Shown here in pieces: positions 601-10,432 of a stretch of DNA of 64,000 nt; position 1 is the first letter of the stretch; every line of letters starts with the position of its first letter. The DNA is from Lineolata rhizophorae. Taxonomy: Eukaryota; Ascomycota; Dothideomycetes; Lineolatales; Lineolataceae. Below the pieces are notes generated by a model. That model made no database searches, had not been told where the DNA came from, and saw nothing but the letters and a program-made list of their open reading frames with translations. Position numbers and translations under genes: made by a program. Where the stretch lies: positions 63,814 to 127,813 of the forward strand of contig MU001709.1 in NCBI GenBank assembly GCA_010093515.1. The letters run 5' to 3'.

Positions 601-3600
601 ATGTCCGACATCACATCCGCTAGCGGCGCGCCCACCGCGCCGCCGGCCTCACACCAGCAATCGCAGCACGAACTACAGGAATCGTCGCAATCACAGCCAC
701 AACCGCAGCAACAAACCGCCTCACCCCCCTCGACATCAGCACACTACCCCCCCAGCACGACCGGCCCGCCCGGCTCCCCCGGCCTCCCGCCCTCGCGCCC
801 TTCCTCCGCCGCAACCTCCGCCGCCGCCCACAAGCGCGGCAGCGCCCCCCAGCGCACGCCATCCACGGCGACCTCTCACGCGCACCCGCCGCCGCCGCCG
901 CCCTCGTCGCGCCGCGGCACCGGCCCCGGCGCGCCCACAAATAGCGTGGCTGGCAGCGTGGTGTCCGCCGGCGGCGGCGGCGGGGTGCGCCCGCCGACTA
1001 GTAGCTCCTCGTCTCGTACGCACGTGCCGTCGCTGACGCCGCACGCCTTCTTTCGGCCCATGAGCAGCCAGCGGCTGCAGGCGCAGCGAGGGCCGCGGCC
1101 GGGCAGCAGCGTCATTGGGAGCCCGCCGCCGCCGCGGCCGACGTCGCCACCGCAGCAACAGCAGCAGGGGCTAGGGCTAGGCGGAGGACTTGGCGGAGGA
1201 CTAGGAGGAGGAGATGCGGACGACGGCCTTAGCGACGCGGCGAGTAGCGTAGCCGGGTACGCCCAGTTGCAGCAACAACAGCAGGCCGCGCAACAGCAAC
1301 AGCAACAGCAACAGCAACAACAACTGGCGCGCCACAGCAATGGCTCCGCCGCGACATCAGCCGGCGGCACGGCGCCCCCGCGCTCCGTGCCCGGTAGCTT
1401 CATCCAGCAGCCCTTTCCGGGCCTCTCCGGCTACAATAACAACAACCACCAGGCGGTGGCGGCGCCGCCCGGGAGCGGCAGCAGCCCTACCACCGCCGCC
1501 GGCGCCGGCGCCGCGCCGGGCGGTCCCATGAGCGGCCCGCCGCCGCCCTCGCGCGGCACCGACTTCACCGAGCGCGAGGCCGACGCCTACTCGTACGGCG
1601 TCGACCGCACGACGGCCAACACGACGCCCACGGGCGCGGACACGGTGCGCTCGCGCGGCGAGAGCGTCACGCCGCTCAGGCCAGGCCTGCCGGGCGGGAC
1701 GGCGGCGGGCGTGCGGACGAGCGGCGGGCCGGCATCGCCTGCTGGTGGCGGACGAGGAGGCGGCGCGGGGGCCGCGGGCGGCGGAAGCGCCGGAGGTGGA
1801 GGTGCGGGGGCCGCTGAGGGCGCGGGCCCAGGCGCCGAGGCGGGCGATGCGCGCGCCGAGGACGCGAACGCGAGCGCGAACGCGAACGCTGCTGGGGCGG
1901 GCGCCAGGAAGAAGGACCGCAAGTCGGCGGGGCCGGCGCGGCTGAGTCTGGACAAGGCGCTGAAGCTGGGGGCGGGCGGTCCCGGGGCGGGTGGGAACGC
2001 GCCGAGCAAGAGCCCGCGGTCGTTCAGGAGTAGCTTCATCTTGCCGAGTCGGAACGGGCGGGGCGGGTCGGAGAGGAGTTCGGTGAGGGGTAGCGGGATC
2101 GGCATCGCGGGGATTGGGCGCACGGGGATGGGGGTCGGCGGCGGGGCGGAGAGGCATCGGGAGGGGCATGAGAAGTTGGAGAGCGAGGCGAGTTCGCCGA
2201 GGGAGGAGGACGAGGAGGGGAGGAGAGGCGCGGGAGGGGAGGGGGACGCGACGGCGGATAGAGATGAGGAAGATGATTTAGATAGGGACGTCGCGCTGAA
2301 GAAGGTCCGGGAGAGGGAGAGGGAGAAGGTCAAGAGGCAGATGCAGTTGGGCAAGAATTACGAGTACTTCACGGGCAACACGGTGTTTTGCTGGGGAGGA
2401 CGGCTGCAGAATGCGAGGGACAGGCCGATCAATATCGCCACGGGCATATTGGTGCTGGCGCCGGCGGGGCTGTTCTTTGGCTTCTCGTGAGTCGTTCATC
2501 TTTCTTTTCTTGAGCTGTGTTTGCCTGTCGAGGTGTGGTCGTAGGCTAATTGCTCTTAGTGCACCATGGCTCTGGCGAAACATTTCGCCTGCGATTCCGA
2601 TCGTCTTCGCCTACATTTTCTGCGTCTGCATGTCCTCGTACTTTCACGCGTCCGTGACAGACCCCGGAGTAAGTTTCACTCGAGCGGACATCTGTCTTTC
2701 TGGTTACATTTCCTTCATCTAACGCAAGATATCAAAACAGATCCTGCCCCGCAACCTACATCCGTTCCCGCCGCCCAACCCGCGAGAAGACCCGCTCACG
2801 CCGGGCCCGGCGACGACGGAATGGACCATGGTCATCAGCGCCACGTCGCCGTCGGCCGCTATGGAGGTGCCCACCAAGTACTGCAAGAGTTGCAACATCT
2901 GGCGGCCGCCGCGGGCCCACCACTGCCGCGTCTGCGACAATTGCATCGAGACGCAGGACCATCACTGCGTGTGGCTCAACAACTGCGTCGGACGACGCAA
3001 CTACCGCTTCTTCTTCGCCTTCGTCGCGGCCGCGACGATTCTGGGCCTAATGCTGTTTGGGTGCAGTCTGGCACAGCTGCTGGTGTGGCAGCGGCAGCGG
3101 CGGCAACCCGGCGGCGGCGGCCCGGGCTTCGGCGACGCCCTCGATGCCAACCGGGTGCCCTTCGCGCTCATGATATTCGCCGTGCTGGGCACGCCGTACC
3201 CGGCCAGCCTGCTCGCGTACCACCTCTTCCTGCTCGGGCGGGCCGAGACGACGCGCGAGTACCTCAACAGCCACAAGTTCGCGCGCAAGGACCGGCACCG
3301 GCCCTTCGACCGCGGCTCCGCGTGGGCCAACTGGGCCGCCGTGCTGTGCAAGCCGCGCGGGCCGACGTACCTGCGGTTCAAGGACCGGTACGTCAAGGGC
3401 GACAGGCGGTTCGGGGACAGACGCAGGGGCAGGGGCGAGGACCCGAGGGGAGGGAAGGGCGGGGGCGGCTCGGCGGCCAAGGGGTTGGGGTTGGGGCTCG
3501 GGCTCGCGGGGAAGGGCGAGCCGCCGGGCCTGGAGATGGTAGATGTGAGTGGGAAGGTGGCGAGGCAGGGGCAGCAGGGCGGAGGCGGGGGGAGGCCGCC

Positions 3601-3700
3601 GGCTTTCGAGGGGCCGGTGGGGAGGCCGCCGTTGGGGACGCCGAGGGCGGGGGCGGGGGGTGAGGAGGGGAGGGGGGGTGGTGGGGAGGAGAGGAGCTAG
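601..3700 (+). CDS. ERF2: ERF2-type DHHC palmitoyltransferase with very long disordered N-terminus
   Basis: Protein S-acyltransferase that attaches palmitate to cysteines of membrane-bound substrates. In yeast Erf2 works with Erf4/Shr5 on Ras at the ER. Three exons keep frame: 601-2486, 2560-2668 and 2741-3700, with canonical GTGAGT and GTAAGT donors, giving 984 residues. The first ~590 residues are disordered Pro/Ser/Ala/Gly/Gln-rich sequence with polyglutamine. The catalytic part follows: GNTVFCWGGR near the membrane entry, two transmembrane segments interrupted by the introns, the cysteine-rich domain (KYCKSC, HHCRVCDNC) and DHHC at about residues 738-741 with Cys741 as the acyl acceptor. 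Two more transmembrane segments and a TTxE motif (AETTRE) come next. The ATG at 601 is used because the open frame upstream has no in-frame ATG. Yeast Erf2 is about 360 residues, so the N-terminal extension is unusually long. The C-terminal tail is Gly/Arg-rich. Confidence 0.93.
1261..1330 (+). repeat. CAG/CAA repeat encoding polyglutamine in ERF2
   Basis: A run of CAG and CAA codons, interrupted by one Ala-Ala pair, encodes a glutamine tract of about 25 residues in the disordered N-terminal region. The mix of both Gln codons lowers slippage compared with a pure CAG run. Confidence 0.9.
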
Positions 3701-5864: not shown

Positions 5865-6674
5865 CTACTTCTCTCTCGTCTCGTAGGTTTCCTTCGTTTC
5901 CTTCGATCTGAAGACATTCTTGCCGTAATCGAGGATGTCTTTGGCAGAAGAAAATTTCGCCTTCCAGCAGCCCATAATGATATCCCTAAGCGGGAGGCCT
6001 TCTGTGCTCGGAAACTTTCCTTTTTCAAATAATGACTCGATGAATTCGTTGCTCAGGCCTTCGTAGGGGGTCTGGCCAGCCACGAGTTCGTAGAGTGAAG
6101 AACCCAGTGCGAAGAGGTCCGACTTTACCGTGTTATCCGCCCCAGCATCTCGAGGGAGGCAATGGCTTGGGGCCTCAAGTCCTTGTGCCGGCCTCCCTTT
6201 CAATCCAAGGTCCGGCTGGTTGTCAAATCCTGATGCGTTGAAGTCGCTAAGCCGGGCGTTGAGGCATGCGTCCAACAGCCACTGGTCGAGCCTGAGATCA
6301 GAATGCCTGACACCCTTGGAATGGATGTATGCGACACTACGGATCATTTGGTAGGTCCAGCGCTTCAGATTCGTTTCTGTGATGCTTGCCCAATGCTCTC
6401 GGATGTATTCCTTAAGGTTGCCGTTGGGATAGTACTCGAGCTCAATATATTCCTTTTCCAGACCAATAGACAAGCACTTGGTGATAAGCGGGTGGCTGCC
6501 TAGAATGAGGTAGACGTCGGCTTCCATTTTGCATGCCTCTATGTTCTGCTCTGTGATGCCTTTGTCATTACCGAGTATATGACATTCCTTCCTGACGGTG
6601 TTTCCGATGCGGTAAGTTTTGGCGCTCATGCCTACCATGAGCAGCTCGCGTTGTGGCTGCGTAGATAGTGGCAT
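5865..6674 (-). CDS. Small accessory protein kinase-like protein
   Basis: Single-exon, 269-residue protein kinase fold with a reduced N-lobe: no glycine loop is visible and the beta-3 lysine position is unclear. A recognisable helix-C region (MEADVYLILGSHPLI, about 51-65) is followed by a hinge (IELEYYPNGNL). The catalytic loop reads HSD at 124-126 in place of HRD, with Arg for the usual Lys (DLRLDQ). The magnesium motif is DFN (144-146) instead of DFG, and helix F keeps its Asp (KSDLFALGSSLYEL). The catalytic Asp126 and DFx Asp144 remain, so weak activity is possible. Proteins with this HSDLRLDQW pattern form a family expanded in filamentous ascomycetes, usually in accessory regions. A CACGTG box lies about 120 bp upstream of the ATG. 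Substrates are unknown. Confidence 0.8.
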   Translation of the reverse strand: MPLSTQPQRELLMVGMSAKTYRIGNTVRKECHILGNDKGITEQNIEACKMEADVYLILGSHPLITKCLSIGLEKEYIELEYYPNGNLKEYIREHWASITETNLKRWTYQMIRSVAYIHSKGVRHSDLRLDQWLLDACLNARLSDFNASGFDNQPDLGLKGRPAQGLEAPSHCLPRDAGADNTVKSDLFALGSSLYELVAGQTPYEGLSNEFIESLFEKGKFPSTEGLPLRDIIMGCWKAKFSSAKDILDYGKNVFRSKETKETYETREK

Positions 6675-6794
6675 AATTTAGACGTCGAGGTAAAGAATGT
6701 GTGCCGGGCCTAAGATAGGATAACGGGCAGGCGCAGGAATTACTGGTAATAGAGGCACATCGGAGGAAGTGGTTGCGGCACGAGCGTATTAATC

Positions 6795-6800: not shown

Positions 6801-7970
6801 TCTGCCCCCCTGAAGCTAAGTTAGGCCTTCTAATTTGAGATGGGGGTAACGCATGGTTTGGTTTGGTTTGGTTTGTTTCATTTACCCTGACCTCTCCCTG
6901 CTACGGGATATGCAGGCTACAACTACTCGGCTATCTCTACATGGGTCTATGAAAAGTACTAGTACATGCAAAAGGGTGGTCTATCGTGGTCTGTGGTTTG
7001 ATTGTGTGTTTGGGTTTTCGTCCGTTCTAGGTGTAGGAGAGCTCTGTGTCTGGTCCCTGTCTGATGCTCTTCCGATGAAGCGTTGTGACTCTATTGCGAA
7101 ATCCAGGACTGCATCGAGGTCTTTCTTGGGGATTTTCCATTTCTGGGCGCCTTGCCGGTTGGTCTGTTGGCGGGGTTTCCCTCCTAGCATCAACGAGATT
7201 GAGTTGAATCGCGATCCTATTTGCTGTCGTAGCCTCTGTCTGGGGGGGGCAACGCATAGGTGCCACAATTGGTCCCCGCTTAGTATGAGCAGCGGAGCGA
7301 AAAGATGTCGCCAAAAACATTTGGATGTTTTTTATTTCGCTGGATGGGGAACAGATAATTGTGTGGGGAACGCACGATCGCGAAACGATCCACCATGCGC
7401 AAGCTCCATAAAATTCCGGCCTGGTCTTCGCCGTACCCACACTTGAGATGCGAAGTCCTTAGTTCCTAACTCCCAACTCGCCTTCCCATCTTCCCTTCTG
7501 CTGCAGCCTCCCCACGATTTCTCATCCCTATGGAAGGCTACCTCATATAGTTGCCCAATGAATGCTCCCACATGTACAGTCCTCCAAAGCATCCCGCGGC
7601 TGCTGCCTAGAGCGCCGAGGTAGTGCTGCGCTCGACACCTTAGGTTCGGTCGACCGTGTAGAGAAAGAGCTCCCTTCAACAGCCGCAACAGCCACCCATT
7701 TGTTCTTTTCAAGCCCGCAGATATCACTAATACTCCATCAATCACGCGTTTGGTCGCCGCTACATATCCTAGTTGGGCGGCGCAATCTAATTGCAAAAGC
7801 TCAGTTCATCCAGAGGTTACGTCAGCCTCTTTGCGAGATCGGTACACAGAGGACGATGAGAGTAGCATAGATTCGACTTTAAGTTCATTAACCCTAGTGC
7901 AGCAAAAGACGCAGACAACTGGTTTGGCCGATCTTGGCATTGAAAGCTGAAGGAAGACACGCAGGAGGGC
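6801..7970. other. Intergenic region with unassigned ORFs
   Basis: Contains a (TTTGG)n run at about 6855-6875 and several overlapping short ORFs on both strands. The longest (7332-7796 minus, 154 codons; 6853-7446 plus, 197 codons) show no motif or splice-linked partner, so no gene is called. Confidence 0.4.
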
Positions 7971-9385
7971 CTAATACGGAATCTGATCACAACATCGCAG
8001 AATCTCCTGCACTTTATTCTCAACGGACAAGTAAACTTCGTCAGCTGATCCATTGCAACTGATCTAGAAAGCCGTTAGCGATCGTCTTGCGATGTAAAAC
8101 TACTAGTACACATACCGTCCAGAATTTCCCGCTTTGTTTGAGATGTGCTTCTATCAGTGAATTCTCCTTAAAAGTTTCCAACCTCTTCTTGAACAGATCT
8201 GGATCATCGTCGATCCGATTGGAATGCGCCGCACGTTTTCTTAGACGTTGCAGCATCACTTCCTCGGAACAATCGAGAAGAATTGTGTAGTTCTGATCAT
8301 GGATCTGGAAAAGGTGTTAATATGACTATGTTGAAGGCCGGACTAGGGCCCATTGATAACCTTTTGCTCAAAGGCGAGTGCCTGGTCCATACTCCGCGGG
8401 AACCCATCGATAAGAAACAGTCTTCCGATCGGCAATTGATCCCTCTATTCTCCTCTTTAAAAGGGTGATAGTTAACTGAGCTGGAATAATAACTGAGGCT
8501 TGTATGCTGTTGTTAATAAAGTTCCTATACTTGGACGATGGAGATTCTGCCTCATCGCGTAGGATATCACCGACAGAAATATAATCAAAGCCAAATTTCT
8601 AGGCGACTCGTATATATTAGGTTCCCTTGCCAACGCTAGGGCCTCCTATACTTCTTTAGTAGATCGTTCAACAAGGCTAATATAGACGATTTACCAAGAA
8701 TAAACAATACAAGGATATTCGTAGTCTTCCTCTACTATAGAGCCTCCCTATCCCGTAATAGGACTTCTGCCCAAGGTCTGAGTTACACGTAGCAGACTTG
8801 ATTGTAAAGGGGAAGAAAATCGTTAAGATCCTTCTAAAGGTAGCTTCGTTCCTCGTAGGTTGCAGCTTGAAACAGGTACTCCAACTTATCTAACTCTCGA
8901 ACCAACTTAGCAGCCTCGGTTTTACCTTCCTCGAACTCTAACCAGATACGTTTTGCTTCCTCGGCGAACGAAGGGTTTATATCTCTAGCGACGGTCGTAA
9001 GAAAGTCTATCGCTAAGCGCTCGCAACGATATTTCTCGTCTAGAAAAATGTGTTAGCGTATATAAAGACGCTGAAATAATGGGATAAATAGTACCTTTCG
9101 AAACTCTATCTAACGGTATAACCTAATGTCTCCGATAATTGATTCTCCTATATCGTGGATCAGTAATATACGTACGTACGATTTTCGATCGAGTTTTATC
9201 GTCAATCTGTTTGCTGGTTAATAAAGTCTAGTTTTTAAACACTAGAACGTGAAATATACTCTGGGTATTATCAGAGACATAATTGCTATCTGCTATATAT
9301 ACCCGCTGACGGTTTCGGGGGATAGGACTGCCCATTTAACCCAACCGCTTCGTGGCAGGTTTTTGAGGCGCTTAATTATGTTTAG
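7971..9385 (-). pseudogene. Decayed fusion gene: HD-domain 5'-nucleotidase plus UMP/CMP-type nucleoside monophosphate kinase
   Basis: Read on the minus strand, this is one decayed gene with four inferable introns (9040-9094, 8646-8694, 8305-8360, 8064-8115). The N-terminal part resembles HDDC2/YfbR-type HD phosphohydrolases: IKRLKNLPRSGWVKW near 9330-9385, the metal-binding HD pair in IHDIGESIIGD (HD codons at 9152-9157), then DEKYRCERLAIDFL, FAEEAKRIWLEFEEGKT and LDKLEYLFQAATYEER. After a linker in the same frame comes an adenylate-kinase-family domain: the P-loop LGGPSVGKGT is restored by removing the intron at 8646-8694, followed by ISVGDILRDEAE, PAQLTITLLKRRIEG, LIDGFPRSMDQALAFEQK, ILLDCSEEVMLQRLRKR and a C-terminus ending at 7971. 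In-frame stops lie at 8834-8836, 8783-8785, 8735-8737, 8732-8734, 8617-8619 and 8599-8601. Frameshifts lie near 9120 and 8430. It cannot make the full protein. Confidence 0.85.
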
Positions 9386-10432
9386 GAACGTAATGTTAGT
9401 AACTAGGTAGGCCATATGGCCGGCGGTGTCTACGACCGCTGAGTAGGCGCCGCCACCAAACACGAAGTTTGTAATCACGAACATCCTAGGGCCGCGCGGG
9501 CTTTGGTGGAGTGAATTGGTCCGGTCCAATTTTTGAAATTGGACGTTGGCACCATTCAGTCTCAAGTGTCCAGCCACTGTGTTGGAGATGATAAATCAGA
9601 AGTCCGCTGCCCGCCACAGAATGCATTGACACTACTACATAGTGGCGTAAACGTGAAACCGCGTCCACGGGCATGCGGCGTTATGTGACGATGGACGACT
9701 CCCAAAGCGGCAAGTCTGGCACGGCATCGTCGAACGTGGATGCGTCTTGATTTTTCATCTTCTGCTCCCGCAAACGGGACGAGAGTGGAGCCACAGCGAC
9801 TCCGCACATTACGGAGTAGTCTCTAGGCGAACTGCGCTGCACGTGATCTTAGCCGGGAGGGCGCATCACGTGCAAGCGCCCCTGCGGCACGAAGTACAGG
9901 GCGGCGTTCTCACCCTCCCCCCGAACCTCCTTGCCGACCTCAGCTTTTCACCCAAACAACGCGCCTCGCATCCAGCCCAGCGCCTCCGAACCGCTTCCAT
10001 ACGCGCCCCCGCGTGCCACAGATCCCGATACCGCTGGCTCCGCACCCCGCGCGCTTTTGCGCTGCCGTTGGGCTTTTGTTCGCCGTCGGCGCGCCGTTCG
10101 CATCCGGCGCTGGGGCAGGCGCGTGCGCGCGCGCGCGCGCGACACCTCACCAAGGCTAGCTAGCTAGCCAGCACGCGCGGTTGGAGAGGAGGAGACGAGA
10201 CGGGCGGCGACGCGAGGACGTGCGCGCGCGAGAGAGAGGGGAGGACGGGCAGTTGCGGAGGTGCGATTCGCTGGGTTGCGAGGGAAGAGATTGAAGGGAG
10301 ACGGGCTGGGAGCGCGGCTAAAGGCGCGGTCTGCGAACTTCGGTGGAGAGGACGGGGGTGCATATACTTAGGGAGAAGAAGTGAAGAGCGCATTGAGAGG
10401 TTCGAGGCGGGATTAAGGGTATTGAGGACAAG
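9386..10432. promoter_or_regulatory. Upstream region of the acidic disordered-protein gene
   Basis: No gene is supported. GC content rises sharply after about 9840. Two CACGTG boxes sit at 9840-9845 and 9867-9872, about 560-590 bp before the next ATG. A GC dinucleotide run (about 10126-10141), a GCTAGCTAGCTAGC run and G/A-rich tracts at about 10183-10250 lie nearer the start, probably in promoter and leader. ORFs across the GC run are low-complexity artefacts. Confidence 0.4.

Follow-up and report, generated by a model that had tools for sequence, protein, structure and literature searches.

Probable relic of a single fungal gene combining an HD-domain hydrolase and a UMP/CMP-type kinase in Lineolata rhizophorae

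Introduction

Enzymes of the HDDC2/YfbR type remove the 5'-phosphate from (deoxy)nucleoside monophosphates, and the metal-binding set of HD_3 or HDDC2-type enzymes is H...HD...D. UMP/CMP kinases transfer a second phosphate onto nucleoside monophosphates with ATP as the donor; their signatures are a GxPGxGKGT-like P-loop, a DGFPR motif and the LID arginines. Neither enzyme type reverses the other: a 5'-nucleotidase takes NMP to the nucleoside, an NMP kinase takes it to NDP, and the two compete for the same NMP. The closest described systems are yeast Ygl101w and human HDDC2 for the HD domain and yeast uridylate kinase, within the UMP-CMP kinase family (TIGR01359), for the kinase. The YGL101W and HDDC2 chains comprise 215 and 204 residues, respectively, and include no kinase, whereas the copy described here continues into a kinase and is dead.

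A fungal pathway in which an HD phosphohydrolase is paired with a kinase domain is that of the cordycepin cluster. According to a review (PMC8869658), Cns2 is an HDc phosphohydrolase, Cns3 combines a nucleoside/nucleotide kinase with HisG, both act successively on one nucleoside, and the Cns3 kinase acts on the 3'-OH of adenosine. The parallel concerns the pathway and not the sequence; compared by description only, the cluster differs from the present locus in that Cns2 and Cns3 are separate proteins and the kinase is fused to HisG. No description of an HD plus NMP-kinase fusion was found among the papers listed by full-text literature searches, at the level of titles and abstract openings, with subscription journals and protein databases outside its scope. 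The two families are known and their combined architecture was not found described, with real doubt on this point, as domain databases may already contain it without comment. Here we present a description of a locus in which both domain types are found in one frame, and which is quite likely the relic of a single fungal gene for an HD hydrolase plus a UMP/CMP-type kinase, now dead.

Genome and surroundings of the locus

The stretch of DNA analyzed, hereafter the window, has a length of 64,000 nucleotides and corresponds to C40:63814-127813; the genome scanned comprises 30.97 Mb in 48 contigs. A preliminary description, made from the sequence of the window, had placed an HD hydrolase followed by a UMP/CMP-type kinase on the minus strand at 7971-9385, and profile scans agree with both the coordinates and the order. 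Domain order, frame, near-completeness of the domains, introns and damage can be read directly at the locus.

Seven ORFs of the region 490-28892 were scanned against Pfam, four of which yielded matches; no other nucleotide enzymes were among the seven. A DHHC palmitoyltransferase (2723-3700) is a neighbour of the relic, while AWS/SET and eIF3 zeta genes lie farther away. The fourth match is a protein-kinase-like ORF on the minus strand (5865-6677; 270 residues, uninterrupted, PF00069 with 68.8 bits), which adjoins the relic. Its PF00069 match begins at profile position 39, leaving the glycine-rich loop outside the match, and HSD and DFN occupy the places of HRD and DFG, the motifs usual in protein kinases; the ORF is predicted to be pseudokinase-like. 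A nucleoside biosynthesis cluster, considered as a possible setting, receives no support from these four matched ORFs (DHHC, protein-kinase-like, AWS/SET and eIF3 zeta). The GC content per kb is 0.43-0.54 at 4-10 kb, compared with 0.61-0.75 in the four kb on each side; equally low values occur elsewhere in the window, e.g., at 16-20 kb and 51-54 kb.

Domains and gene structure

The pseudogenized HD half, of the HDDC2/YfbR/Ygl101w type, occupies 8738..9385 on the minus strand, as delimited by PF13023 and the alignment to YGL101W. A six-frame scan of the genome placed HD_3 (PF13023) at window positions 9373-8831 (C40:73186-72644, minus strand) with 59.4 bits, in a match that contains four TAG and two TAA. 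With X set at the stops, the score was 66.7 bits (cut-off 22.5), covering profile positions 2-142 of 165. The HD_3 match proper thus spans 8831-9373 on the minus strand, and the conserved C-terminal part continues to 8738. No NCBIfam model matched the HD half at E <= 0.01. The closest solved structure is that of S. cerevisiae YGL101W (5yox; E 2.9e-17), to which the HD half aligns near full length (residues 30-210 of the 215-residue chain), followed by human HDDC2 (4dmb), to which it aligns in three pieces. The HD pair and the later D of the metal-binding set are retained; the first H, which lies within SDHM in both YGL101W and the other copy in this genome, is replaced by Y.

The kinase half (7971..8645, minus strand) was delimited by PF00406, TIGR01359 and 1uky and terminates at a TAG (7973-7971). 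In the six-frame genome scan, ADK (PF00406) matched C40:72462-72250 (window 8649-8437), adjacent to the HD match and on its strand, with 38.8 bits. With X at the stops, the N-terminal kinase piece reached 69.1 bits (cut-off 26.8), and the C-terminal piece alone, with 18.4 bits, remained under that cut-off. Among 24 NCBIfam matches for this half the top one was TIGR01359, covering positions 1-183 of 185, i.e., almost the whole domain, with 147 bits. This score is under the curated cut-off of 207.6; the kinase differs from the members of that family in being broken and preceded by an HD domain. The closest solved structure is that of yeast uridylate kinase (1uky; E 1.8e-33). From the sequence and the 1uky alignment, the motifs GGPSVGKGT (P-loop), SVGDILRDE, DGFPRSMDQA and NRIDDD are present; in the P-loop, S and V occupy variable places of the GxPGxGKGT-like motif.

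Four GT-AG introns of 49-56 bases, all on the minus strand, agree with the homologies on both sides. The intron at 9040..9094 (55 bases) lies within the HD part, and its flanks join homologous stretches. The one at 8646..8694 (49 bases), as the preliminary description had proposed, has GT...AG ends, lies between the first strand of the kinase and the P-loop and splits the latter, so that its removal joins ILG to GPSVGKGT. Within the kinase, removal of the intron at 8305..8360 (56 bases), which contains ATTAAC before its 3' end, joins MDQALAFEQK to IHDQNYTILLDC. The fourth intron (8064..8115; 52 bases) is located near the kinase C-terminus. The introns at 9040-9094 and 8064-8115 each contain GCTAAC, which we take to resemble the fungal branch-site consensus.

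The junction (8695..8737, minus strand) consists of two tandem TAG, the four residues RKTT and the kinase's initial beta strand (NILVLFILG), which extends to the intron. The alignment to YGL101W stops at residue 210 of 215, at the first of the tandem TAG, and the TIGR01359 model begins, at its position 1, eight residues past the last HD-aligned residue, with the frame unchanged. The linker therefore comprises only a few residues, and the end of one near-complete domain meets the start of another in one frame. Most of the linker of about 50 residues proposed earlier belongs to the conserved C-terminal part of the HD protein, with eight residues left between the domains. The translation shows no in-frame ATG from the C-terminus of the HD part to the P-loop.

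Stops, frame changes and RIP-like mutation

The damage is unevenly distributed. The frame of the HD half (9499-8695) contains nine stops, all of them TAA or TAG, and zero TGA. Five of the nine (9295, 8836, 8785, 8737 and 8734) break homologous sequence or the junction. Those at 9244 and 9220 lie within an insertion relative to YGL101W, which may be an unrecognised intron, the one at 9112 is located where the homology runs in another frame, and the one at 9055 falls inside the 55-base intron. The HD half also shows one frame change. In the kinase half, two stops follow shortly past the P-loop and a frame change is located near 8419. Given these stops and frame changes, a functional product from this copy is very unlikely.

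Counted over all six frames, TGA accounts for 13 of 106 stop triplets in 8580-9420; the corresponding figures are 24 of 60 for 7980-8579 and 44% for the window as a whole. Because TGA is scarce over the six frames of 8580-9420 taken together, its absence from the HD frame is a property of the composition of this block.

The block (8580..9420; GC 0.41) is defined irrespective of strand; in it lie the HD half and the junction, as well as the linker intron and, probably, the beginning of kinase exon 2. Its TpA/ApT ratio is 1.41 and its (CpA+TpG)/(ApC+GpT) ratio 0.58, yielding a composite index of +0.83. It thereby qualifies under the published RIP criteria of PMC7882544, which ask for a product index >1.15, a substrate index <=0.75 and a composite index >0. 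When 800-base windows were moved along the 64 kb, 6 of 633 qualified under these criteria, all starting at 8301-8801, i.e., the block is the sole such stretch. In steps of 120 bases, the signal weakens near 8580 and near 9420.

The signal is carried by the junction together with the kinase first strand (8737-8695; 6 TpA, 4 ApT, no TpG) and by the linker intron (8646-8694; 8 TpA, 5 ApT, no TpG), and it is weak in the 66 bases that open kinase exon 2 (8580-8645; 8 TpA, 6 ApT, 4 CpA+TpG, 4 ApC+GpT). The position of the edge is uncertain, the counts being small, yet the edge does not lie at a domain border. With the junction and the kinase first strand inside the block, whose edge falls away from the domain border, the halves were probably joined before the block was mutated. 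The earlier claim of a single dead gene with an in-frame join accords with these observations, i.e., near-complete domains arranged end to start within one RIP-like block.

With 7700-9700 as the query, a genome-wide search at the DNA level found this region itself only, hence no repeat partner of the block; an old, lost or diverged partner may have existed. Among the DDE_1 transposase matches in the genome, 13 of 21 are without an internal stop, and the remaining eight contain stops of all kinds (7 TAG, 3 TAA, 4 TGA). RVT_2 yielded one match, with one TAG. Because no repeat partner was found and most transposase matches look sound, the block is termed RIP-like only. There is no clear sign of strong RIP across the genome, and we infer the cause of the damage. 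Short RIP-like patches were observed near DDE_1 transposase matches in four of 16 transposon regions (L061, L065, L071 and L073), these being the regions with any stretch that passed the RIP criteria; five of the 16 contain N runs. The patches suggest that RIP in this genome is patchy or past.

Relatives of the two halves

In six-frame scans of the genome, PF13023 was found at two places, the window and C19 (183.5 bits, no stops), and PF00406 in nine matched pieces on five contigs; within the genome, HD_3 and ADK share a contig only at the window locus. These scans revealed no intact fused HD-kinase copy, the window copy being broken, and family, DNA and protein-piece searches for other fused or partial copies detected no second fused copy in the genome. 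Apart from the window itself, the matches comprised the HD gene on C19, the kinase on C20, a weak kinase match on C5 (E 0.136) and the other ADK-family pieces. The C19 (HD_3) and C20 (UMP/CMP-type kinase) genes belong to the same families as the two halves but differ from them in being uninterrupted matches on different contigs.

The HD half and the C19 protein are identical at 25% of 220 aligned columns (37% in the best piece), and C19 reads without an intron through the position of the 55-base intron. For the kinase half the nearest kinase in this genome is that of C20, on a third contig, with 39% and 41% identity in two pieces. The preliminary description had named as its refutation the presence of the two domains in relatives always as separate genes. 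Within this genome the homologues are indeed separate and on different contigs, but their identity to the halves (25-41%) is too low for recent parents. Given the 25% and 39-41% identities and the missing intron in C19, it appears unlikely that the halves are recent copies of resident separate genes. Their divergence seems more in keeping with a separate lineage of some age than with resident genes joined recently by accident. The fusion, or both of its parts, may represent such an old lineage or have come from elsewhere.

Searches of IMG/VR yielded 25 loci for the kinase piece and 0 for the HD piece, and prokaryote genomes yielded 10 loci for the kinase piece. With the window HD half or C19 as the query, no HD match at E <= 0.01 was found near these 35 loci, in a test that is weak because it used diverged queries and open stretches of at least 60 residues in flanks of up to 4 kb. 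The highest score against the window kinase among the 35 loci was 85.1 bits, obtained for an NMP kinase from a Planctomyces MAG (L040, 851-1993). This exceeds the 77.1 bits of the best single open stretch of the C20 kinase, an uneven comparison, as C20 matches in two stretches. The L040 ORF has a long stretch ahead of its P-loop, and its contig contains no HD match.

Alternative readings

The arrangement could also have arisen from neighbouring, separate HD and kinase genes, or from two inserted fragments, that were merged by deletion or insertion during decay and came to share a frame by chance. The other HD and kinase genes of the genome are separate, one of the tandem TAG, which lie exactly at the HD C-terminus, could in principle be the original stop codon of an independent HD gene, and the composition of the HD half differs from that of most of the kinase, a difference that also fits patchwork histories. 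Such a merger, however, requires breakpoints that fall only a few codons from where one domain ends and from where the next begins, as well as the correct frame, which chance would provide about once in three; it leaves the kinase without an in-frame ATG, and the RIP-like block crosses the junction and the kinase first strand. We regard a merger during decay as unlikely, though it is the most serious competitor of a single ancestral gene.

It is far less probable that the gene is alive and its stops are bypassed via further introns or recoding. The kinase motifs are well preserved, and of the nine HD-frame stops four lie in or close to stretches that could be bypassed by splicing or by a change of frame. 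The other five, however, interrupt HD homology or the junction; a further two come after the P-loop, both halves contain a frame change, and the histidine of SDHM is substituted. That neither domain is real, the relic being over-read from a chance resemblance, might be argued from the stops and frame changes in both halves. The probability of this is negligible, as HD_3 reaches 66.7 bits over a cut-off of 22.5, ADK 69.1 over 26.8 and 1uky an E-value of 1.8e-33, and the six-frame whole-genome scans put both domains over their cut-offs without any joining by hand; the PF13023, PF00406 and 1uky scores already refute it. The reading as one former gene is therefore the one followed below.

Proposed function and significance

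As a single gene, the ancestor would have encoded one two-domain enzyme, with an N-terminal HD-superfamily 5'-(deoxy)nucleotidase and a C-terminal NMP kinase separated by a linker of <10 residues. The HD half would convert nucleoside monophosphates to nucleosides and phosphate, and the kinase half would convert nucleoside monophosphates to diphosphates with ATP. It had been proposed that such a polypeptide couples the removal and the addition of phosphate; judged from what is known of the two families, this wording is not supported, because both reactions consume NMP and neither undoes the other. Since both halves would act on one NMP pool, the simplest role for the fusion would instead be that of a branch-point enzyme, deciding whether (d)NMPs, or some modified nucleotide, are disposed of or salvaged. 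As to the death of the gene, the HD half was probably struck by RIP or a similar C-to-T process, which would have produced the TAA and TAG stops, and one frame change per half may have occurred before or after the RIP-like mutation.

We tentatively suggest, while holding the opposite to be somewhat the likelier, that the locus is a dead member of an undescribed fungal lineage of bifunctional proteins, in which an HDDC2-type nucleotidase and a UMP/CMP-type kinase with a near-zero linker would form an NMP branch-point switch, possibly for modified or toxic NMP. In the genome at hand only a relic is preserved, and its immediate value is as a pointer for where to look. If intact relatives exist, they would represent one polypeptide with two enzymes competing for one nucleoside monophosphate, and would offer a clean test case for the balance of nucleotide disposal and salvage as well as a marker of nucleoside-analogue metabolism in fungi.
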